From Alphaproteobacteria bacterium (lineage in GTDB: Bacteria > Pseudomonadota > Alphaproteobacteria > Micavibrionales > UBA2020): DNA of 41,243 nt. Of this stretch, positions 3,355 through 14,804 are shown in pieces. The first letter of the stretch is position 1. Every line of letters begins with the position of its first letter. The translations under genes were made by a program, and so were the position numbers. The notes below the pieces were generated by a model, which saw only the letters and a list, made by a program, of their open reading frames with translations, had not been told where the DNA came from and ran no database searches. The stretch is from positions 1 through 41,243 of the forward strand of contig JAUXOC010000068.1 of assembly GCA_030682495.1 (NCBI GenBank), written 5' to 3'.

Positions 3355-3390
3355 AAAAGCGCCTTTTGATGTAAGTCAAAGGGCGCTTTT
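3355..3390 (+). terminator. terminator hairpin containing an FNR box
   Basis: A 15-bp stem (3355-3369 with 3376-3390, one T-G pair) is followed by CTT, so the right arm ends in TTTTCTT. It follows the DUF465 stop by 25 bases and should act as its terminator. The tip of the same hairpin is the FNR-type palindrome at 3366-3379. Confidence 0.75.
3366..3379 (+). promoter_or_regulatory. FNR/FixK-type box upstream of the DUF190 gene
   Basis: TTGAT-GTAA-GTCAA, a full match to the FNR-type consensus. A -10-like TATGCT at 3402-3407 begins about 30 bases from the centre, as for class II activation. It serves the gene at 3485 and overlaps the upstream terminator stem. Confidence 0.8.
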
Positions 3391-3484
3391 CTTGGCGCGT
3401 CTATGCTGGAATCGGAGCCGCAAAAGCAATAGAGAGCGGCGCACGCAGCAGGCTCCCTGCGCGGTCAGCCGCAGGAGAAAAACC

Positions 3485-3835
3485 ATGCATAGTGGATCAA
3501 CAGTCAGCGTTCTGCGCATCTATATCGGCGAAAGCCATTATCACCAGCATGTGCCGGTTTACGAGGCAATCGTCTACCGCGCACGGGAAAGGAAACTGGC
3601 CGGCGCCACTGTTTTCAAAAGCAGCCTTGGTTTCGGGGGGGCCGAGTTGCGCCCGTCGCAAGGGCAACACCCCTACAGGGTTTCCGACGATGCGCCGGCC
3701 ATTGTGGAAATCGTCGATCAAGAAGACCGCCTGCAGGATTTTATGCCGGTCGTGCGGGACATGCTGGGTAACCGCGGGCTCGTCACGCTTCATACAGCGG
3801 CGGTCCTGCATTATAGCGCGGCGGTGGAAAAATAA
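3485..3835 (+). CDS. DUF190 PII-like protein
   Basis: A 116-residue protein of the DUF190 family, whose members fold like PII signal proteins. Visible family features: the first strand [20 protein letters not shown], the [21 protein letters not shown] block, then [13 protein letters not shown], and the C-terminal [14 protein letters not shown]. The start at 3485 is fixed by AGGAG at 3473-3477 and the family N-terminus. DUF190 genes are often beside crcB fluoride channels; here none is present. Instead the gene has its own FNR-type promoter and lies directly upstream of ccoN, so it is probably induced at low oxygen. The ligand is unknown. It might sense a nucleotide as PII proteins do, but the known PII T-loop signature is not evident. 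Confidence 0.85.
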
Positions 3836-3853: not shown

Positions 3854-3867
3854 TTGACAAAAGTCAA
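3854..3867 (+). promoter_or_regulatory. FNR/FixK-type box upstream of ccoN
   Basis: TTGAC-AAAA-GTCAA, a perfect palindrome, 106 bases before the ccoN start. A weak -10-like element (GATACC, 3888-3893) sits at about the class II distance. It is the likely main control site for the whole cco-hemN run. Confidence 0.85.
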
Positions 3868-3972: not shown

Positions 3973-5403
3973 ATGGATACTCAGAAACCGCAATATAACG
4001 ACGACATCGTCAGGCTTTTTACCATCGCAACCCTGTTTTGGGGGATTGCCGGATTCGCTGTCGGTTTGTTGATCGCGCTGCAACTCGCCTTTCCCGACCT
4101 TAATTTCGAGCCGTATCTCACTTTTGGTCGTCTGCGCCCCGTCCACACTTCGGCCGTGATTTTTGCTTTTGGCGGCAATGCGCTCTTTGCAACCAGTTAT
4201 TTCGTCGTGCAGCGCACCTGTCAGGCGCGGCTGTGGAATGATACGCTGGCATTCTTCACATTTTGGGGCTATCAGACTTTTATCGTCATTGCGGCGCTCG
4301 GCTATCTGGCCGGCGTGACGCAGGGCAAAGAATATGCGGAGCCGGAATGGTATGCGGATCTCTGGCTGACGGTGGTCTGGGTGGCCTACCTGATCGTCTT
4401 TCTGATGACGCTCGCAAAACGTAAAGAGCCCCATATTTATGTGGCAAACTGGTTCTATCTGGCTTTTATCGTCACAGTGGCGATCCTTCACCTTGTCAAC
4501 AATCTGTCGCTACCTGTGGGGTTGGCCGAGGCCAAGAGCTATTCCGCCTACGCCGGTGTACAAAGCGCGATGATCCAGTGGTGGTACGGGCATAACGCCG
4601 TGGGTTTCTTCCTCACCGCGGGTTTTCTGGGCATGATGTACTACTTTGTGCCGAAACAGGCCGGCCGGCCGGTGTATTCTTACCGCCTGTCGATCCTGCA
4701 TTTCTGGTCGCTGATTTTTATTTATATCTGGGCGGGTCCGCACCATCTGCATTATACGGCGCTGCCGGATTGGGCGCAGACACTGGGCATGACTTTTTCG
4801 ATCATGCTATGGATGCCCAGTTGGGGTGGCATGATCAACGGGCTGATGACGCTATCGGGCGCGTGGCACAAACTGCGCGATGACCCCATCCTGCAATTTA
4901 TGATCGTGGCGCTGTCTTTCTATGGCATGAGCACTTTTGAAGGGCCGCTGATGTCGATCAAGGCCGTGAACGCGCTCAGCCATTATACAGACTGGACGAT
5001 TGGCCACGTGCATTCCGGTGCGCTCGGCTGGGTCGGCTTTATCACCTTTGGCGCGCTGTATTATCTGGTGCCGGTGCTGTGGGACAAAAAGGAAATGTAT
5101 TCCAAAAAGCTGATCAGCGTACATCTCTGGGTCGCCACGATTGGTATCGTGCTTTACATGGTGTCGATGTGGTTCGCGGGCATTCTGCAAGGTCTGCAAT
5201 GGCGCACGTATGACGATATGGGGTTCTTGCAATATTCCTTCGTCGAAACAGTTGCCAATCTGCATATCTATTACATCATTCGCGCACTGGGCGGTCTCTT
5301 GTATCTCGGCGGGGCCTTGGTGATGATTTACAACGTTGTTAAAACGGTCAAAGACGGTGCGCCCGTGCGCGCCGCGCTGCAAGGAGCGGCCCATGCTGGA
5401 TAA
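3973..5403 (+). CDS. ccoN: cbb3-type cytochrome c oxidase subunit I
   Basis: The 476-aa catalytic subunit of cbb3 oxidase, an inner membrane haem-copper oxidase with high oxygen affinity. About 12 membrane helices are seen. Haem and copper ligands visible: RPVHTSA (low-spin haem b), [13 protein letters not shown] (CuB His), GPHHLHYT (two further CuB His) and [12 protein letters not shown] (haem b3 and b ligands). The length matches the family. The start at 3973 has GGGAGAGG at 3957-3964 and gives [11 protein letters not shown]; the in-frame ATG at 3898 would add 25 atypical residues and would fall almost at the expected transcription start. The end overlaps ccoO by 11 bases. Controlled by the FNR-type box at 3854. 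Confidence 0.97.
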
Positions 5404-6127
5404 GCACAAGAAACTTGAAAAAAACTCTATGCTGTTGCTGCTCTTCACGGTGATTGCGGTGTCGATTGGTGGCCTGGTCGAAGTGATCCCGCTCTTCCGC
5501 ATGGATGTCACCATCGAGAAGGTGGAGGGCATGCGGCCCTATACGCCGCTGGAGCTGATGGGGCAGAATATTTATATCCGCGAAAACTGCAGCTCCTGCC
5601 ACAGCCAGCAGATCCGCCCGCTGCGTGACGAGGTGGAACGCTACGGCCATTATTCGCTTGCGGCCGAAAGCATGTATGACCGTCCGTTCCTTTGGGGCTC
5701 CAAACGTACAGGACCCGACCTTGCGCGTGTGGGGGGGAAATTCTCCGATGAATGGCATGTCGCGCATCTCAAAAACCCGCGCGAACTGGTGCCGGAGTCG
5801 ATTATGCCGAGCTATGCCTTTCTGGCCAATCGCGGTGTGGATCTGAGAAAAATCCGCAGCCACCTCAAATCGCTGCGCACAGTCGGCGTGCCCTATACCG
5901 ACGAGATGATTGAGCAAGCCTATAACGATGCGATGGCACAAGGCCGCGCCGATGGCGATGCCTCCGGTCTGCGCGCCCGCTATGGCGACAAGGTCATCAC
6001 CCGCGATTTCGACGGCCAGCGTGAAATGCTCAGCGAGATGGATGCGCTGGTCGCTTATTTGCAGGTGCTGGGTACGATGGCTGATCTGCGTCATTACAAT
6101 CCGGATATTGCGGAGATGAAAGAATGA
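5393..6127 (+). CDS. ccoO: cbb3 oxidase subunit II, monohaem cytochrome c
   Basis: A 244-aa membrane-anchored cytochrome c that passes electrons from CcoP towards CcoN on the periplasmic side. One N-terminal helix (about residues 12-33), then the haem-binding CSSCH at residues 66-70 and the axial methionine in SIMPSYAF. The motif [17 protein letters not shown] is characteristic of CcoO. The start is an ATG inside the end of ccoN with AAGGAG at 5381-5386, so translation is probably coupled. Its stop overlaps the ccoQ start (ATGA). Confidence 0.97.
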
Positions 6128-6282
6128 GCGCGCTTGTCGATTTTGTTGCAAACAACAGTACGCTGATCGGTCTTATCGGTTTCTTTCTCGCTTTTGTGTT
6201 GATTGCAGCCATAACGTACCGGCCGGCAAACAAGGCACGTATCGAATCCTACGGCCATATTCCTTTCAAGGAGCGTGAATAA
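6124..6282 (+). CDS. ccoQ: cbb3 oxidase small subunit CcoQ
   Basis: A 52-residue single-helix membrane protein: a short N-terminus, one hydrophobic helix (about residues 13-31, [19 protein letters not shown]) and a charged C-terminus ending HIPFKERE. Length, position between ccoO and ccoP, and topology match CcoQ/FixQ, which stabilises the oxidase complex. The ATG overlaps the ccoO stop, and its stop directly abuts the GTG of ccoP. Confidence 0.93.
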
Positions 6283-7188
6283 GTGTCAGGGCAGGAACTA
6301 CCGGAAAAAGACGATATCACCGGCGTCGAAACGACAGGCCATGAATGGGACGGTCTTAAAGAGCTGAATAACCCCGCGCCGCGCTGGTGGTTGTGGGTTT
6401 TCCTTGTGACCGTGATCTGGTCTGTCGGCTATTGGGTCGTTTACCCCGCCTGGCCGACCTTCAGCGGCGCGACCGAAGGCACATGGAAATGGACGCAGTA
6501 TGGCGAGTTGAAAGAAGCACAGCAGGAAATCCATCAGCGCCGTGCAAAATATCAAGACCGGTTTCATCAGGCGGCGCTAGCGGATATTCTGGCCGATGCA
6601 GAATTGTATGAATTTGCACGCGTGGGCGGTGCGGCGGCTTTCAAAGAAAACTGCGCGGCTTGCCACGGCACGGGCGCAGCGGGAGGGCGCGGCTATCCGA
6701 ACCTTAACGACGATGATTGGCTGTGGCACGGCAAACTCGATGAGATTCACGAAACGCTGCGTGTTGGCATCAATTCGGGACATGATGAATCGCGCATCTC
6801 GCAAATGCCGGCCTTCGGACGCGATGGTCTGCTGACGCGCGCCCAAATCGGCGACGTGACGGAATACGTGCATCAATTGCATCTGGCCGATAAGGCAAAT
6901 GCCACGCCTGCTTATACACGCGGGCAGCAGGTTTACACCGAAAACTGCGCGGCCTGCCATGGCGCAGACGGTGAAGGCGACCGCACGCTTGGCGCGCCAC
7001 GGCTGAACGACGAAGTCTGGCTTTGGGGTGGTGATAAAAAATCGATCCACAATACCGTCACCAACGCGCATGTGGGCGTGATGCCCGCATGGGAGGGCAG
7101 GCTCAGCCCCGACACGCTGAAAGCGCTGACGATTTACATTCATTCACTGGGCGGCACAGAGCCTGACGTGCCGATGCAAAATGAATGA
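6283..7188 (+). CDS. ccoP: cbb3 oxidase subunit III, dihaem cytochrome c
   Basis: A 301-aa dihaem cytochrome that accepts electrons from soluble or bc1-linked cytochrome c. The N-terminus is cytoplasmic with the conserved GHEWDGLKELNNPAPRWW block, then one helix (about residues 35-55), and two class I cytochrome c domains with CAACH at residues 124-128 and 222-226; axial methionines are in ISQMPAFG and GVMPAWEGR. The start is GTG at 6283, immediately after the ccoQ stop, with AAGGAG at 6268-6273 inside ccoQ. The end overlaps ccoG by 8 bases. Confidence 0.97.
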   Translation: MSGQELPEKDDITGVETTGHEWDGLKELNNPAPRWWLWVFLVTVIWSVGYWVVYPAWPTFSGATEGTWKWTQYGELKEAQQEIHQRRAKYQDRFHQAALADILADAELYEFARVGGAAAFKENCAACHGTGAAGGRGYPNLNDDDWLWHGKLDEIHETLRVGINSGHDESRISQMPAFGRDGLLTRAQIGDVTEYVHQLHLADKANATPAYTRGQQVYTENCAACHGADGEGDRTLGAPRLNDEVWLWGGDKKSIHNTVTNAHVGVMPAWEGRLSPDTLKALTIYIHSLGGTEPDVPMQNE

Positions 7189-8614
7189 CGGCGTCGTTTA
7201 CTTTGAAAAACAGAAAAAAATATACCCGCGTTCGGTCAAGGGCCGCTATCGCCAGCTGAAATGGCTGGCGATGTCCGTATTGCTGGGTATTTACTATGCC
7301 GTGCCGTGGATCCGCTGGGACCGCGGGCCGCATGCGCCGAACCAGGCGGTGCTGATCGATATGCCGGCGCGCCGCGCGTATTTTTTTAATATCGAATTAT
7401 GGCCGCAAGAGGTTTATTTTTTTGCAGGGCTGATGGTGCTGGCGGCCGTGGGGCTCTTCTTCGTGACCAGCCTTCTGGGGCGGGTCTGGTGCGGCTATGC
7501 CTGTCCGCAAACCGTCTGGACGGATTTATTCGTCGCAGTCGAGACCTGGATACAGGGTGATCGTAATGCACGTATGAAGCTCGATAAATCGCCGCTATCT
7601 TTGGAAAAGATCTGGAAAAAGACGCTCACCCATGCGCTCTGGGTCGTCATCGCGCTTTGCACGGGCGGCGCTTGGGTATTTTATTTTGTTGATGCACCGA
7701 CGCTGCTCGATCAGATAAGGCATTTCGACGTATCGTATATGGCCGGCAGCTGGATACTCGGTCTGACGGCCTCAACCTATATCATGGCCGGGTATGCGCG
7801 TGAGCAGGTCTGTATATACATGTGCCCTTACGCGCGGTTTCAGTCGGCGATGTTCGATAAGGATACGCTGATTATCGGTTATGATCGCGAACGTGGCGAT
7901 CCGCGCGGCAAGCACAAACGTGGCGACAGCTGGGAAGGCCGTGGCCATTGCATAGATTGCACGCAATGCGTCATTGTCTGCCCGATGGGTATCGACATCC
8001 GCGATGGCTTGCAAATGGAATGTATCGCTTGCGGGCTGTGCGTCGATGCCTGCAACGATGTCATGGATAAAATAGATCTGCCGCGCGGGCTTATCCGTTA
8101 TGATACGCAGAAAAACTATGAACGCCGGACCTTGGCGCAAAAAACCGCAGTGCTTTTCAAGTCCGAAATCAATCTCCTGCGCCCGCGTACTTTTTATTAT
8201 ATCGCGATCATGACCGTTATTAGCGCGCTGATGCTTTTTGCTTTTTTAAACCGCAGCAATGTGGAGTTAAGTGTTATCCACGACCGCAATCCGCTTTACG
8301 TCAAACTATCCAGCGGCGATATTCGAAATACCTATACCTTGAAAATTGTGAATAAGACGCGCGAAGACCGGATCTTTGCACTTGAAATCGACGGCCTGTC
8401 GCCGCGCGAGATTTCTGTCGCGGGGGCGGGGGCACCGCAGCCGGATAATCTCATGGTGCTGGCCAATAGTGTGGGCACTTTTCGTGTGATGGTGGTGCTG
8501 GAGGCCGGGAAAGCCATGCGGCATCCACGCCATAACTTGCGCATGGTGGTGCGCGATCAAGAGGGATTTGCCGATGAGATGGAAACCGTTTTTATCAGTG
8601 AAGGAGTGCAGTAA
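7181..8614 (+). CDS. ccoG: CcoG/FixG/RdxA cupric reductase for cbb3 assembly
   Basis: A 477-aa membrane iron-sulphur protein. CcoG proteins reduce Cu(II) to Cu(I) in the cytoplasm for delivery to the CcoN copper site. Features in order: N-terminal basic stretch (KIYPRSVKGRYRQLKW), several membrane helices, the CGYACPQTVWTDLF motif, two 4Fe-4S ferredoxin motifs (CIDCTQCVIVCPMGID and CIACGLCVDACNDVMDK), a further helix near residue 345, and a C-terminal Ig-like periplasmic domain. It overlaps ccoP by 8 bases and its TAA shares its final A with the ATG of ccoH, so it is part of the same transcript. Confidence 0.95.
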   Translation: MNDGVVYFEKQKKIYPRSVKGRYRQLKWLAMSVLLGIYYAVPWIRWDRGPHAPNQAVLIDMPARRAYFFNIELWPQEVYFFAGLMVLAAVGLFFVTSLLGRVWCGYACPQTVWTDLFVAVETWIQGDRNARMKLDKSPLSLEKIWKKTLTHALWVVIALCTGGAWVFYFVDAPTLLDQIRHFDVSYMAGSWILGLTASTYIMAGYAREQVCIYMCPYARFQSAMFDKDTLIIGYDRERGDPRGKHKRGDSWEGRGHCIDCTQCVIVCPMGIDIRDGLQMECIACGLCVDACNDVMDKIDLPRGLIRYDTQKNYERRTLAQKTAVLFKSEINLLRPRTFYYIAIMTVISALMLFAFLNRSNVELSVIHDRNPLYVKLSSGDIRNTYTLKIVNKTREDRIFALEIDGLSPREISVAGAGAPQPDNLMVLANSVGTFRVMVVLEAGKAMRHPRHNLRMVVRDQEGFADEMETVFISEGVQ

Positions 8615-9090
8615 TGTCCGGTGAAGCATTGCCAAGGCCGTCTGATAAATGGATTCCCTGGTATATCGTCCTGTTTTTTGTCGTGCTCAGTTTTGTTTTT
8701 GGCGGCTTTACCTATGTCGCGCTGAAAACGCATACGGGGCTGGTGACGGATAATGCCTATAAAAAAGGCATCGCCTATAACGAGACGATCAACAAAGACA
8801 GGCAGCAAAAGGCGCTCGGCTACAAGGCGCATCTGACGTATAGCGACGACACTGTGATTTTTTCTCTGGTAGATAAAGCCGGCATACCCGTTGAGATATC
8901 TTCGGCGTCGATCTGGTTTTTTCGGCCGACCAATGCAAAAAGCGATTTGCGGGCGGAAATGACGGCGGCGGACACCGGACGCTTTGAATACGCCGCAGCA
9001 GCGCCGCCGGCGGGGCTGTGGGAAGTGCGCATTCTGGCCGAAACAGCTGCCGGCCCTTACCAATATGCGAAAAGAAGGGTGTTTGAATGA
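8614..9090 (+). CDS. ccoH: FixH/CcoH family cbb3 assembly protein
   Basis: A 158-aa protein with one N-terminal membrane helix (about residues 13-36, WIPWYIVLFFVVLSFVFGGF) and a periplasmic beta-rich domain. FixH/CcoH proteins are needed for a stable cbb3 complex, probably by contacting subunits during assembly. The start overlaps the ccoG stop by one base with AAGGAG upstream (8601-8606). Its position between ccoG and the copper ATPase is the standard ccoGHIS order. Confidence 0.92.
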   Translation: MSGEALPRPSDKWIPWYIVLFFVVLSFVFGGFTYVALKTHTGLVTDNAYKKGIAYNETINKDRQQKALGYKAHLTYSDDTVIFSLVDKAGIPVEISSASIWFFRPTNAKSDLRAEMTAADTGRFEYAAAAPPAGLWEVRILAETAAGPYQYAKRRVFE

Positions 9091-11243
9091 ACGAGCCCTT
9101 GCGCGCAACAGATTATTCAAGGCATGTCGAAGAAACTGCCGATGGCCGCTGCCACCTGCGTCTGCTCATCGATGGCATGCACTGCGCCGGCTGCGGCTTT
9201 AAAATCGAGAAATTGCTGAACGGTGGCGGCGTGATTGCGCGCGTGAATGTCACCGAAAAACGCCTTTCGCTCAGCTGGGATGGCGGGCGCAGTGCGGGGA
9301 ATGATCTTGTTGCGCGGGCGGCGGCGCTCGGCTTTCAATTCTCGCCTGTTGAAAAACAGGCAAGCAAAGAGGTGGCGCATTTGCGCTACCTGCTGCGCTG
9401 CATCGCGGTTTCCGGATTTGCCGTGGGCAACCTGATGGTATTTTCCTTCGCGCTGTGGTTTTCAGGACGCGAGTCGATGGGCGGCACAACGCGGGATTTG
9501 ATGCATTGGTATTCTGCTCTCATCACGCTCCCCACCGTGATTTACGCAGGCGGGCCGTTTTTTAAATCGGCCTGGCGTGCGCTCCGCCATCGTCGCACCA
9601 ATATGGATGTACCGATTGCGGTGGCTGTCACGCTGGCCTCCGCCGTCAGTCTGCATGAAACGATTGTTTCGGCTGAGCATGTCTATTTTGATTCTGTTGC
9701 CATGCTGCTGTTTCTGCTCTTGATCGGTCGCTATCTCGATGCCCGCATGCGGGCGCGGGCGCGCAGTGCCGCCAGCGATCTGCTCAGTCTTATGCAGGGT
9801 ACCGCGCATGTGATGGCGCCCGAGGAGTTAATCCGTATGCCTGCCGCCGATCTGAAGCCCGGTATGATTTTACAGGTCACGAAGGGCGAGAGGATTCTGG
9901 CGGACGGCACGGCCCTTACGGCGGCCTCTGTCGATACATCTGCGATTACCGGCGAAACACTGCCGCATTATATTGCGGCGGGGACGGCGGTTGCGGCGGG
10001 CATGGTTAATCTGGGCACGCCATTACAGGTGCGCGTCGATAAAACGCAGCAGGCGAGTCTGATTGGCGATATCGTTGCACTGATGCAAAAGGCAGAGCAA
10101 GGCGGTGCAGCCTATGTCCGCATCGCCGACCGCATTGCGCGCTGGTATACGCCGGTCGTGCATGCGCTTGCGCTGTTCACGTTCTTGGGCTGGACGCTGG
10201 CGGGCGGCATGCTTTGGCAAAATGCACTGCTCTGTGCTGTGACGGTGCTGATTATTACCTGTCCCTGCGCGCTGGGGCTTGCGGTGCCGGTGGCGCAGGT
10301 GATGGCGGGCGGGCGCTTGTTCCGTCGTGGCATGCTGCTGAAATCAGCCGATGCACTGGAGCGGCTTGAAAAAGTCGATACGGTTGTTTTTGACAAAACG
10401 GGTACGCTGACCACGGGACAGATTGTTTTTGAAAATGTGGATGATATCGATGCGCAGACGCTGCGGGCGGCCGCATCGCTGGCGGCCACCAGCCGGCACC
10501 CGCTGGCGCAGGCGCTTGTCTCCGTGGTTCCTGCCGCACCGGCGGCGGGTACGGTAGAGCAGGACGGACAGGGCGTGGAGCAGCGCTTTGAAAACGGCGG
10601 CTGGCACAGGCTCGGCTCTGCGGCATTTCTGGGTGTGCCGGCTACTGCAGGGGACGACAAGATGGAGCTGTGGTTCGGCACGCAAGATACCGTGGCGCAG
10701 CGTCTGGTTTTTTCTGACCTGCCGCATCCGGATGCAGCGGCGGTTATCGCGCGGCTGCGCAAAAGATACCGCGTTATTTTGTTGTCGGGAGATCGGCCAC
10801 AGGTGACGCAGGCGATGGCAGCGCAGCTGGGCATTGATATGTGGTCGGGCGGTATTGACCCGCGCCGAAAATACGACAGGGTCGATGCCGAAATCGCGGC
10901 AGGGCATCACGTGCTTATGGTCGGCGACGGGCTAAATGATGCCGCGGCGCTCAGCCGGGCGAGCGTGTCCATGTCGCCGTCCAGTGCCCTCGATATCGCG
11001 CAGAACGCAGCAGATATCGTTTACCAGCGTGCGGGCATCGCCTCTGTCGAAGACGCGCTACAAACCGCCGTGCGTACACAGCGGATCGTCCGCCAGAGTT
11101 TTGGCATGGCGCTCTGTTACAACCTTATTGCCGTGCCACTGGCCATCGCGGGGCTGGTGACGCCCCTGGTGGCGGCGGTATCGATGTCGCTGTCGTCGCT
11201 ACTGGTCGTCGGTAATGCGCTGCGGCTGAAAGAGGACAAATAG
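9087..11243 (+). CDS. ccoI: copper-translocating P1B-type ATPase CcoI
   Basis: A 718-aa P-type ATPase that exports Cu(I) to the periplasm for insertion into cbb3 oxidase. Domains in order: a heavy-metal-associated domain with GMHCAGC (Cys33 and Cys36), membrane helices, an actuator domain with TGETLP, the membrane metal site TCPCALGLAVP (CPC), the phosphorylation loop DKTGTLT, a nucleotide domain with SRHPLAQA (HP motif), and GDGLNDAAAL. The ATG overlaps the ccoH stop (ATGA). The neighbours identify it as CcoI/FixI rather than a CopA detoxification pump. Confidence 0.96.
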   Translation: MNEPLRATDYSRHVEETADGRCHLRLLIDGMHCAGCGFKIEKLLNGGGVIARVNVTEKRLSLSWDGGRSAGNDLVARAAALGFQFSPVEKQASKEVAHLRYLLRCIAVSGFAVGNLMVFSFALWFSGRESMGGTTRDLMHWYSALITLPTVIYAGGPFFKSAWRALRHRRTNMDVPIAVAVTLASAVSLHETIVSAEHVYFDSVAMLLFLLLIGRYLDARMRARARSAASDLLSLMQGTAHVMAPEELIRMPAADLKPGMILQVTKGERILADGTALTAASVDTSAITGETLPHYIAAGTAVAAGMVNLGTPLQVRVDKTQQASLIGDIVALMQKAEQGGAAYVRIADRIARWYTPVVHALALFTFLGWTLAGGMLWQNALLCAVTVLIITCPCALGLAVPVAQVMAGGRLFRRGMLLKSADALERLEKVDTVVFDKTGTLTTGQIVFENVDDIDAQTLRAAASLAATSRHPLAQALVSVVPAAPAAGTVEQDGQGVEQRFENGGWHRLGSAAFLGVPATAGDDKMELWFGTQDTVAQRLVFSDLPHPDAAAVIARLRKRYRVILLSGDRPQVTQAMAAQLGIDMWSGGIDPRRKYDRVDAEIAAGHHVLMVGDGLNDAAALSRASVSMSPSSALDIAQNAADIVYQRAGIASVEDALQTAVRTQRIVRQSFGMALCYNLIAVPLAIAGLVTPLVAAVSMSLSSLLVVGNALRLKEDK

Positions 11244-11403: not shown

Positions 11404-12751
11404 CATGCTCAAGCAAAAAATTCTCGCCTATAACGCGCTGGTGCCGCGCTATACCAGCTATCCGACCGCGCCGCATTTCAAGCCGCTGGCCGCGACGGAT
11501 TATGCGGTCTGGCTGGATTCACTCGCGCCAGAAGCCGGTATATCTGTCTATGTGCATATCCCGTTTTGCACGGAAATGTGCTGGTACTGTGGCTGCCATA
11601 CGACGGCAACACGTAAATACGCACCTGTTGAAGATTACGTCACGCTGCTGCTGCGTGAAATGCGCAGTGTGGCGGCACGGCTGCCGGTGCGCACGCAGGT
11701 GCGGCATATCCATTTCGGCGGCGGGTCACCCAGTATGCTCTCGCCGCAGGATTTTGCGCGCATCATGGAGACGCTGCGTGAACTATTCGATGTTACCGCC
11801 GATGCGGAAATCGCTATCGAGGCCGACCCGCGCGGCATCACCTATGACCGCGGCGAAGCCTATGCAGCAGCGGGCGTCAACCGCGCCAGTTTCGGCATTC
11901 AGGATTTCGCACCGGACGTGCAGGTCGCCATCAACCGCGTGCAGTCCTATGACACTGTGGCCAGGGCCGCAGAACGTCTGCGCGGATTTGGCATCACGCG
12001 TCTCAATTTCGACCTGATGTATGGTCTGCCGCGTCAGTCGCTGGCCGATGTGCAGGATACGGCCGAAAAATCACTGTCGCTGGCGCCGGACCGCATAGCG
12101 CTGTTTGGTTATGCGCATGTGCCGTGGATGAAAAAGCATATGCGGCTGATACGTGATGAAGATCTGCCGGATGCTGCGGCGCGTCTGGATCAATTCGCAT
12201 GTGCTGAGTCTGTGCTACTGGCAGCGGGCATGCATCCGGTGGGGCTGGATCATTTTTGTACGGCGCATGACGATATGCTGGGTGCCCGTGACGGGAAGCG
12301 GCTCGCGCGCAATTTTCAAGGCTATACGACGGATTCGGCACCGGTATTGATAGGCTTCGGCTTATCCTCCATCGGGCGGCTGACACAGGGCTTCGTGCAA
12401 AACCACGCCAATATCACCGAATACAGCGCCGCCGTTCTGGCGGGCGCACTGCCTGTGGTACGCGGCTGCGTATTGTCGGCGGAGGATACCCTGCGTGGTG
12501 TGGTGATCAGTGATCTGATGTGCTACCTCTGTGCGGATATCGGGGCCATTTTGCAGCGGCATGGCCAGCCGGAAGATCTCTTTGATGCAATTATCGACGG
12601 GCTTGCCGATATGGAGGCAGACGGCTTGCTCACACGCTGCGGGCGTGTGCTGCATGTGCAGGGAGAGGCGCGGCAGATGGTGCGCGTGGTGGCGGCGCGC
12701 TTTGATGCCTATTTTACCGGCCAGTCCGGTCGGCACGTGCAAGCGGCGTAA
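11393..12751 (+). CDS. hemN: oxygen-independent coproporphyrinogen III dehydrogenase
   Basis: A 452-aa radical SAM enzyme that converts coproporphyrinogen III to protoporphyrinogen IX without oxygen, a late haem step. The 4Fe-4S motif is CTEMCWYC (Cys59, Cys63, Cys66 from the chosen start), preceded by VYVHIPF and followed by GGGSPSML, all typical of HemN. The N-terminal YTSYPTAPHF distinguishes HemN from the HemW group. The start is the GTG at 11393 with GGGAGG at 11381-11386; ATG at 11405 is the alternative but lies 18 bases from that site. It is the last gene of the cco run, so oxidase and haem supply are co-expressed at low oxygen. Confidence 0.95.
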   Translation: MIDSMLKQKILAYNALVPRYTSYPTAPHFKPLAATDYAVWLDSLAPEAGISVYVHIPFCTEMCWYCGCHTTATRKYAPVEDYVTLLLREMRSVAARLPVRTQVRHIHFGGGSPSMLSPQDFARIMETLRELFDVTADAEIAIEADPRGITYDRGEAYAAAGVNRASFGIQDFAPDVQVAINRVQSYDTVARAAERLRGFGITRLNFDLMYGLPRQSLADVQDTAEKSLSLAPDRIALFGYAHVPWMKKHMRLIRDEDLPDAAARLDQFACAESVLLAAGMHPVGLDHFCTAHDDMLGARDGKRLARNFQGYTTDSAPVLIGFGLSSIGRLTQGFVQNHANITEYSAAVLAGALPVVRGCVLSAEDTLRGVVISDLMCYLCADIGAILQRHGQPEDLFDAIIDGLADMEADGLLTRCGRVLHVQGEARQMVRVVAARFDAYFTGQSGRHVQAA

Positions 12752-12822: not shown

Positions 12823-13461
12823 TTAGAAGCGGTAACCGACACCGGCGCCGAATACCCATGGGTCAAGGTCAACATCCGCACGCACCGCGCCGCCGTTGAC
12901 GCGGGCATCGGTATTGAGGAAGATTTTTTTGACGTCGAGGTTCAGGCTCCAGTTTTTATCAAGCTTGTAGTCCATGCCGGCCTGCAGCGCGTAGCCAAAA
13001 CTGTTTTTGTATTTAATGTCGGTGGCCGCGCCCGAATCGGCGTTGTAGAAAATGGTATAGTTAATGCCTGCGCCGACATAGGGGATGAAAGCGGTCTGGT
13101 TGTTAAAGCGGTATTGCGCCGTCAGCGTCGGCGGCAGCACCCAGACGGAGCCGAGATCGATGCTCGGGTTTGCATGCGCCATGTCGTGTTTGGTGGTGGC
13201 GAGGATCAGCTCCAGCGAGAAATTCTCATTGATAAAATAAGTAATATCAAGCTCCGGCATGACGCCGGAATCTGCCTTGACCGAACCGCCGAGGGTTGTC
13301 GAACTGCTTTCATCCGGCGTGACGCTGATGGCACGGAGGCGCAATTGCCAGTCATGCGGGTTGAAATCAGCCTTGGCGGGGGTGGCGGACAGCGCGGCAC
13401 AGCACAAAGCCGCGGCGGCAAGGTATTTGCATTTATTTTTGTTTTCGCTTTTATTTTTCAT
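12823..13461 (-). CDS. ompW: OmpW family outer membrane protein
   Basis: A 212-aa outer membrane beta-barrel. There is a signal peptide (basic KNKSENKNKCK, hydrophobic stretch, cleavage probably after AKA near residue 31). The mature part starts with a strand carrying WQLRLRAISVTPDES, then MPELDITYFINENFSLEL, PYVGAGINYT and a terminal GVGYRF ending in Phe, as expected for barrels. OmpW forms a small hydrophobic channel. An AGGA lies about ten bases before the start. Upstream is an FNR-type box (13520) at class II distance with TAGTTT as -10, matching the known FNR control of ompW in other bacteria. Confidence 0.92.
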   Translation of the reverse strand: MKNKSENKNKCKYLAAAALCCAALSATPAKADFNPHDWQLRLRAISVTPDESSSTTLGGSVKADSGVMPELDITYFINENFSLELILATTKHDMAHANPSIDLGSVWVLPPTLTAQYRFNNQTAFIPYVGAGINYTIFYNADSGAATDIKYKNSFGYALQAGMDYKLDKNWSLNLDVKKIFLNTDARVNGGAVRADVDLDPWVFGAGVGYRF

Positions 13462-13519: not shown

Positions 13520-13533
13520 TTGACAAAGGTCAA
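13520..13533 (-). promoter_or_regulatory. FNR/FixK-type box upstream of ompW
   Basis: TTGAC-AAAG-GTCAA. On the minus strand a -10-like TAGTTT (13497 down to 13492) begins about 30 bases from the box centre, the class II spacing, so this box most likely activates ompW. It sits 23 bp from the second box at 13543 in the divergent ompW-fnr region. Confidence 0.8.
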
Positions 13534-13542
13534 ACTTTCCAC

Positions 13543-13556
13543 TTGATAAAAGTCAA
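13543..13556 (+). promoter_or_regulatory. FNR/FixK-type box upstream of the fnr-like gene
   Basis: TTGAT-AAAA-GTCAA, a full match to the FNR-type palindrome. It is 59 bases before the chosen fnr start and suggests autoregulation. TACCTA at 13580 is a possible -10 at class II distance; repression by overlap with another promoter is equally possible. Confidence 0.75.
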
Positions 13557-13614
13557 GAAACTGCCATGATTATTGCAAATACCTACTCTTTCAATGAATG
13601 CGAAGTTTCCCGCC

Positions 13615-14334
13615 ATGTCTGCGTCCAAAGCCGTCATCCAGAACCATCTGCGCCTGCAGCCGCTTTTTAAGCCGCTGCGCGATGAAACGCTTGCGGGCTT
13701 TGCGGAATATGCAGCGCTGAAGGCTGAGAAAAAAGGCGCGGTCTTGTTTTCTGCCGAAACGCCGAACGAGAAAATTTATTTTGTGCTGTCGGGCTGGGTG
13801 AAGCTGTTCCGCGAAACGCTGGCGGGGGATGAGGCGGTGGTGGATGTGCTGACCGCCGGCAATTTTTTCGGCGAGATCGGTCTGTCCGGTCATGATGAAA
13901 TGCCCTATGGCGCGGAAGTGGTAGAGGATGCGGAGATCATCACCATCCCCCGTTTTTTGCTGGCCGAAGAAATCATGCGCAACAGTCTTTTTGGCATGGC
14001 TGTTTTGCAAAATATGACGCGCCAGAGATTACAGCGCGATATGGAGATCGAACACCGTACTGTGCAAAGCGCGCCGCAGCGCATCGGCTGTTTTTTGTTG
14101 AAGCTTTGCCGCGACAATACGGGCGACCCTGTGGTGCTGCACTTGCCCTATGACAAGACGGTGGTGGCGCATCGCCTCGGCATGCAGCCGGAGACGTTTT
14201 CGCGCGCGCTCAGCAAACTGCGCGAAGAGACGGGCCTGCGCGTGCGCGGCGCAACCGTTGAAATAGATAACGTGAAAAAACTTGTCGATTATACCTGCAG
14301 CGCCTGCTCGTCCAGCTTCCCCTGCGAGGATTAG
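13615..14334 (+). CDS. fnr: Crp/Fnr family regulator with C-terminal cysteine cluster
   Basis: A 239-aa DNA-binding regulator: an N-terminal cyclic-nucleotide-binding-like beta-roll (KGAVLFSAETPNEKIYFVLS, then GNFFGEIGL), a dimer helix, and a C-terminal winged helix. The recognition helix QPETFSRALSKL has the E-x2-SR pattern used by FNR/FixK proteins to read TTGA half-sites, matching the five boxes nearby. It lacks the N-terminal cysteine group of E. coli FNR. Instead the last residues read CSACSSSFPC (Cys228, Cys231, Cys237), like the C-terminal 4Fe-4S ligands of Bacillus subtilis Fnr. It is therefore probably a direct oxygen sensor. Start uncertain: ATG 13594 or TTG 13573 are in frame; 13615 leaves room for a leader downstream of the box at 13543. 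Convergent with zur. Confidence 0.88.
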   Translation: MSASKAVIQNHLRLQPLFKPLRDETLAGFAEYAALKAEKKGAVLFSAETPNEKIYFVLSGWVKLFRETLAGDEAVVDVLTAGNFFGEIGLSGHDEMPYGAEVVEDAEIITIPRFLLAEEIMRNSLFGMAVLQNMTRQRLQRDMEIEHRTVQSAPQRIGCFLLKLCRDNTGDPVVLHLPYDKTVVAHRLGMQPETFSRALSKLREETGLRVRGATVEIDNVKKLVDYTCSACSSSFPCED

Positions 14335-14342
14335 GGCGGTTT

Positions 14343-14804
14343 TTATTTCCCGCAGTCGCGGCAGACGCCGTGCAGTTCCAGCACCTGACGTCCGGTTTTG
14401 AATCCGTGTGCGGCGGCGGCGTGGCTGAGTTTTTCGCCAATGCCGTGGTCGGCGATTTCGTCGGTATGGCCGCAGCCGTCGCAGACCAGAAACAGATGCC
14501 GGTGGTCTTCCTGCGGGTGGCGGCAGGCACGAAAGGCATTGAGGCTTTCGATTTTTACGACAACGCCGATATCGCAGAGCGCTTCAAGCGCGCGGTAGAC
14601 GCTGGTGGGTTTAATATCGCGGCCGTGCCGCGTGGAGAGATATTCGAGTAGTGCATAGGCCGTGATCGGCGCGCTATGGTCGAGCAGCGCGTCATAGGCC
14701 TCTGCCCGCGGTGCTGTCCAGCGCTGTTTCAGCTGCGCCGCGCGCTTTTCCGCGTAGGCAATCAGATCGGCCTTGCTGTGGCTATGCGCGTGATGTGACG
14801 ACAT
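14343..14804 (-). CDS. zur: Fur family regulator, probably Zur
   Basis: A 153-aa metal-dependent repressor. The N-terminus is His-rich (MSSHHAHSHSK). The winged helix includes PITAYALLEYL and KPTSVYRALEAL. The metal sites include FRACRHPQEDHRHLFLVCDGCGH and a C-terminal CRDCGK, giving two CxxC zinc motifs. The RACRHP and LVCDGCGH blocks resemble Zur more than Fur. Zur represses zinc uptake genes when zinc is sufficient. A good ribosome site (AAGGA, 14811-14815) lies in the short gap after the upstream minus-strand gene, so the two are probably one transcript. The end is 8 bases from the end of the convergent fnr gene. Confidence 0.85.
   Translation of the reverse strand: MSSHHAHSHSKADLIAYAEKRAAQLKQRWTAPRAEAYDALLDHSAPITAYALLEYLSTRHGRDIKPTSVYRALEALCDIGVVVKIESLNAFRACRHPQEDHRHLFLVCDGCGHTDEIADHGIGEKLSHAAAAHGFKTGRQVLELHGVCRDCGK

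Follow-up and report, generated by a model that had tools for sequence, protein, structure and literature searches.

A Crp/Fnr-family regulator of Micavibrio relatives with four invariant cysteines, a candidate oxygen sensor next to a cbb3 oxidase operon

The regulator gene and its surroundings

The window, i.e., the whole stretch of 41,243 nucleotides analysed here, carries on its forward strand (13615..14334) a gene for a protein of 239 aa whose Pfam domains, a cNMP-binding fold (cNMP_binding, E 3.7e-17) and an HTH_Crp domain (HTH_Crp_2, E 4.3e-12), place it in the Crp/Fnr superfamily. The start codon is somewhat doubtful, as in-frame alternatives exist at 13594 (ATG) and 13573 (TTG). The translation ends in ...VDYTCSACSSSFPCED, with CSACSSSFPCED as the terminus of the 239-residue chain, and holds five cysteines (159, 165, 228, 231, and 237). 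No cysteine occurs in the N-terminal 150 residues, the first being Cys159 (codon at 14089..14091, + strand), and three stand beyond the last helix as a C-terminal triad, Cys228-x2-Cys231-x5-Cys237 (codons within 14296..14325, + strand). The recognition helix reads MQPETFSR (14182..14205, + strand; residues 190-197, invariant in clade A1), in which E193-T-F-S196-R197 forms the E-x2-SR pattern of the FNR/FixK recognition group, with E193, S196, and R197 all invariant. An earlier note on this DNA had described the recognition pattern, the lack of an N-terminal cysteine cluster and the C-terminal C-x2-C-x5-C, and all three were recovered here.

In the predicted structure (pLDDT 93, and 77 in the tail) Cys159 is located inside helix 153-165, the first helix of the DNA-binding domain, and Cys228 directly follows helix 220-227. 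The best structural match of the model was the holo-FNR of A. fischeri (Z 23.6, rmsd 2.5, 226 aligned residues), with a mycobacterial CRP tying at Z 23.4. By sequence, the closest solved relative is a cNMP-binding protein of Ruegeria pomeroyi (PDB 3fx3, 3h3z; E about 2e-31, about 33% identity), the aligned part of which, in contrast to the regulator, lacks C-terminal cysteines.

Several genes of respiration lie on the same strand ahead of the regulator: ccoN, ccoO, and ccoP of a cbb3-type cytochrome oxidase (3973..7188; PF00115, PF02433, PF14715/PF13442), probable targets of the regulator; ccoG, fixH, and a ccoI-like P-type ATPase gene for oxidase assembly (7181..11243; ccoG by ORF reading, the others by PF05751 and PF00122); and a hemN-like radical SAM protein (11411..12751; PF04055, with the hemN name taken from ORF reading). 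On the reverse strand, a gene for an OmpW family outer membrane protein (12823..13461; PF03922) is divergent from the regulator and shares its boxes, and a FUR-family regulator gene (14343-14804; PF01475) stands tail to tail with it. The box scan found two exact FNR/FixK boxes in the ompW-regulator intergenic region, TTGACAAAGGTCAA (13520..13533) and TTGATAAAAGTCAA (13543..13556, 72 bases ahead of the regulator ATG), and two further exact FNR boxes, TTGACAAAAGTCAA (3854..3867) upstream of ccoN and TTGATGTAAGTCAA (3366..3379) upstream of a DUF190 gene. Sites of the form TTGAY-N4-RTCAA are thus present at the target promoters, as recognized by their sequence alone. The DUF190 gene follows its box directly (the two together at 3366-3835) and adjoins the oxidase operon; it may play a part in life at low oxygen. 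The whole genome has 13 exact boxes, including these four ahead of respiration genes; most of the others fall inside long genes (uvrB-like, guaB-like, and degP-like, named by ORF reading) and look like chance occurrences.

The genome is 99% complete, and the regulator is both its only cNMP-binding protein above the cut-off and its only HTH_Crp_2 match above the cut-off. A search of the genome with the FixJ model retrieved receiver domains only and no full FixJ. Across the order, FnrL was matched in one genome of 55, with a score under its cut-off, and the regulator itself scored 21.8 bits with the FnrL model (cut-off 300) and 89.5 bits with FtrB (NCBIfam PRK09392; curated cut-off 211). No relatives of the regulator were found in viral contigs.

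Conservation and covariation of the cysteines

A scan of public genomes for relatives of the regulator yielded 80 loci. The window protein and 53 homologues (33-85% identity to it, mostly labelled Micavibrio or Alphaproteobacteria) were treated as a clade of 54 proteins, and 26 more distant relatives (Azospirillum and others) as the outgroup. Cys228, Cys231, Pro236, and Cys237 are invariant in all 54 members, so that the check on close homologues proposed with the triad was passed; judged from this alignment, the conservation of the triad is far in excess of chance. Cys159, which the earlier note did not mention, is likewise invariant (54/54), and Cys165 varies within the clade. Neither Cys159 nor a triad in the register of Cys228 occurs in any of the 26 outgroup proteins, two of which (L068 and L072) have a cysteine-rich tail of another kind. 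In one homologue (L042, 5065-5800) the frame breaks early (78 aa), reflecting either an assembly frameshift or a broken gene.

The setting of the gene is conserved as well. An FNR box lies within 300 bases upstream of the regulator in 49 of the 54 loci (an exact one in 47), compared with 4.4% of random 330-bp pieces from the same loci and 5 of 22 outgroup genes. At 39 of the 54 loci ccoN is found within about 8 kb of the regulator, and the interval usually holds a membrane-protein gene divergent from it. As the regulator is tied to the oxidase, hemN, and ompW genes and to the boxes, and no other Crp/Fnr protein is present, it must somehow be told about oxygen; the conserved cysteines would be the obvious place for this input. 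The suggestion that the protein is an oxygen sensor, already made for this gene, fits the sole Crp/Fnr protein, the FNR boxes, and the cbb3 oxidase operon.

Crp/Fnr proteins were sampled more widely, from 55 genomes belonging to the window's order and 385 belonging to its class. Among 166 related proteins, 81 have both Cys159 and the triad, 83 have neither, two have Cys159 alone, and none has the triad alone, i.e., position 159 is cysteine without exception wherever the triad stands in the Cys228 register; this register rule was chosen after the data had been seen, which makes the covariation partly post hoc. A looser definition of the triad (any CxxC tail) was abandoned for the register rule after giving 18 mismatches, tails without Cys159 in another clade, nearly all of them LCxxCD...C tails with the motif about 4 residues earlier and mostly with extra cysteines. 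On a tree built without the columns concerned, each of the two traits changed at least five times, and the independent contrasts (3 to 5) included none in opposition, a number too small for a significant sign test. Of 220 columns, 159 predicted the triad best, whether or not the window's own clade was included, and the next ranks over all proteins went to His147 and Glu144, where the dimer helix ends. Taken together, the four cysteines appear to have come and gone as a unit over evolutionary time, and the simplest reading is that they would make up a metal site that bridges the tail and the opening helix of the DNA-binding domain, with Cys159 as the candidate fourth ligand. We infer metal binding from this pattern of sequence.

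Further Crp/Fnr clades carry tails such as CSHCSSLPGEC, CDNCSVRESC, and LCHFCDxDTAxxC, and the spacing to the third cysteine differs between clades (x2, then x5-x7). Most of the remaining genomes in the window's family have a related regulator with a CxHCxxxPGEC-like tail and Cys159 (L125, L126, L128, L135, L139, and L148), with two adjacent genes of this type in L128, L135, and L139. A separate group (L154, L150, L156, L124, and others) has LCHFCDxDTAxxC...CxxC tails with at least five cysteines, and its residue at position 159 is mostly Tyr; these tails may form another metal site at the C-terminus, with ligands of its own. Other proteins (L127, L130, L132, L133, L137, and L141) end in FCDxxxxxxPC; their tails have two cysteines but no CxxC, and position 159 is Thr or Ala. 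A close copy of the regulator (QRIGCF, CTACSSEFPCDD) is present in L214, from a genome consisting of a single contig (G709) that belongs to the same class and lies outside the window's order; the regulator type is therefore not confined to this order. The stretch fetched for L214 also contains an exact FNR box.

A putative cluster in the DNA-binding domain and its alternatives

FNR is the model case of oxygen sensing via an iron-sulphur cluster. We consider it probable (about 0.68) that the regulator is an oxygen-sensing [4Fe-4S] switch of the FNR type in which the cluster sits in the DNA-binding domain, having been relocated there from the N-terminal sensor domain. In such a switch, the four cysteines (159, 228, 231, and 237) would hold the cluster when oxygen is absent, and the C-terminal tail would thereby be pinned against the helix that opens the DNA-binding domain, close to where the dimer helix ends (Glu144/His147). 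The pinned tail would fix the recognition helices for TTGAY-N4-RTCAA, and the loaded regulator would, in what we infer to be the direction of control, activate the cbb3 oxidase, hemN, ompW, and its own gene. Oxygen would destroy the cluster, free the tail, and lower DNA binding.

Four covarying cysteines are also what a standard zinc site looks like, and a structural zinc could tie the tail to the DNA-binding domain, leaving either a FixK-like activator without an oxygen sense of its own or a protein that senses oxidants by releasing zinc. This is unlikely in our view, since with a sole Crp/Fnr protein and no FixJ-like cascade found, something must sense oxygen for the FNR boxes; moreover, zinc ribbons mostly use CxxC pairs, whereas the third-cysteine spacing varies here between clades. 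A thiol-disulphide switch that reports oxidants and has no cluster would have a precedent in this superfamily, in which CprK and FixK2 are inactivated through cysteine oxidation (PMC2610375; PMC9104804). We hold such a switch to be quite improbable, as two cysteines suffice for it and it does not need four invariant ones that come and go together.

The earlier note had called the triad Bacillus-type and explained it by convergence or transfer. The Fnr of B. subtilis does bind its cluster with three C-terminal cysteines, C227-x2-C230-x4-C235, and with Asp141 as the fourth ligand (PMC3520743), and near the Asp141 position the regulator clade has a conserved acidic Glu144 that tracks the triad. 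However, the C-x2-C-x4-C of Bacillus is replaced by C-x2-C-x5-C throughout the clade, which is the spacing of E. coli FNR, and the likely fourth ligand is an invariant Cys159, a role filled by Asp141 in Bacillus; the label is therefore not supported. The nearest relatives among the compared proteins, a set from which Bacillus Fnr was absent, are alphaproteobacterial and tail-less (Azospirillum, Ruegeria), and because of this a local gain is favoured; a Bacillus-type Fnr transferred from Firmicutes seems to us highly improbable.

The proposed cluster-binding switch can be put in broader terms, for which we see even odds, as a third FNR-type architecture: an all-cysteine [4Fe-4S] site in the DNA-binding domain (Cys159 plus a C-terminal C-x2-C-x5-7-C), spread over several alphaproteobacterial clades, that would take the place of N-terminal FNR among Micavibrio relatives and would lock the DNA-binding domain rather than drive dimerisation. 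If true, the occurrence of FNR's ligand spacing at the other terminus of the protein would mean that this scaffold allows switching from more than one site, and oxygen sensing without FnrL or FixLJ would be explained for a large, mostly uncultured group of Alphaproteobacteria, the Micavibrio relatives. Lineages that have gained or lost the site would also offer ready contrasts for identifying the ligand residues. In the literature searched (subscription journals being outside its scope), no account of alphaproteobacterial Fnr proteins with a C-terminal cluster was found.

Relation to FNR and FixK

The four ligands of the [4Fe-4S] cluster in E. coli FNR are Cys20, Cys23, Cys29, and Cys122 (PMC6659574), so that both proteins have C-x2-C-x5-C and one distant cysteine, and they share the TTGAY-N4-RTCAA box and the fold, with the holo-FNR of A. 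fischeri among the top matches. They differ in where the cysteines stand: the triad is N-terminal in E. coli FNR and C-terminal in the regulator, and the distant cysteine belongs to the sensor domain in the former and to the DNA-binding domain in the latter. Lacking the N-terminal triad and the sensor-domain cysteine, the regulator was not assigned to E. coli-type FNR or FnrL. With FixK/FixK2 of rhizobia it has in common the absence of N-terminal cysteines and the control of a cbb3 oxidase operon via the same kind of box, which in the window is predicted from the promoters. FixK2, however, is driven by FixLJ and has a single cysteine (C183), whereas the regulator has four invariant cysteines, which speak against membership in FixK, and the FixJ model had matched receiver domains only. 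The layout thus falls outside both E. coli-type FNR and FixK, as had been proposed from the first reading of the gene.
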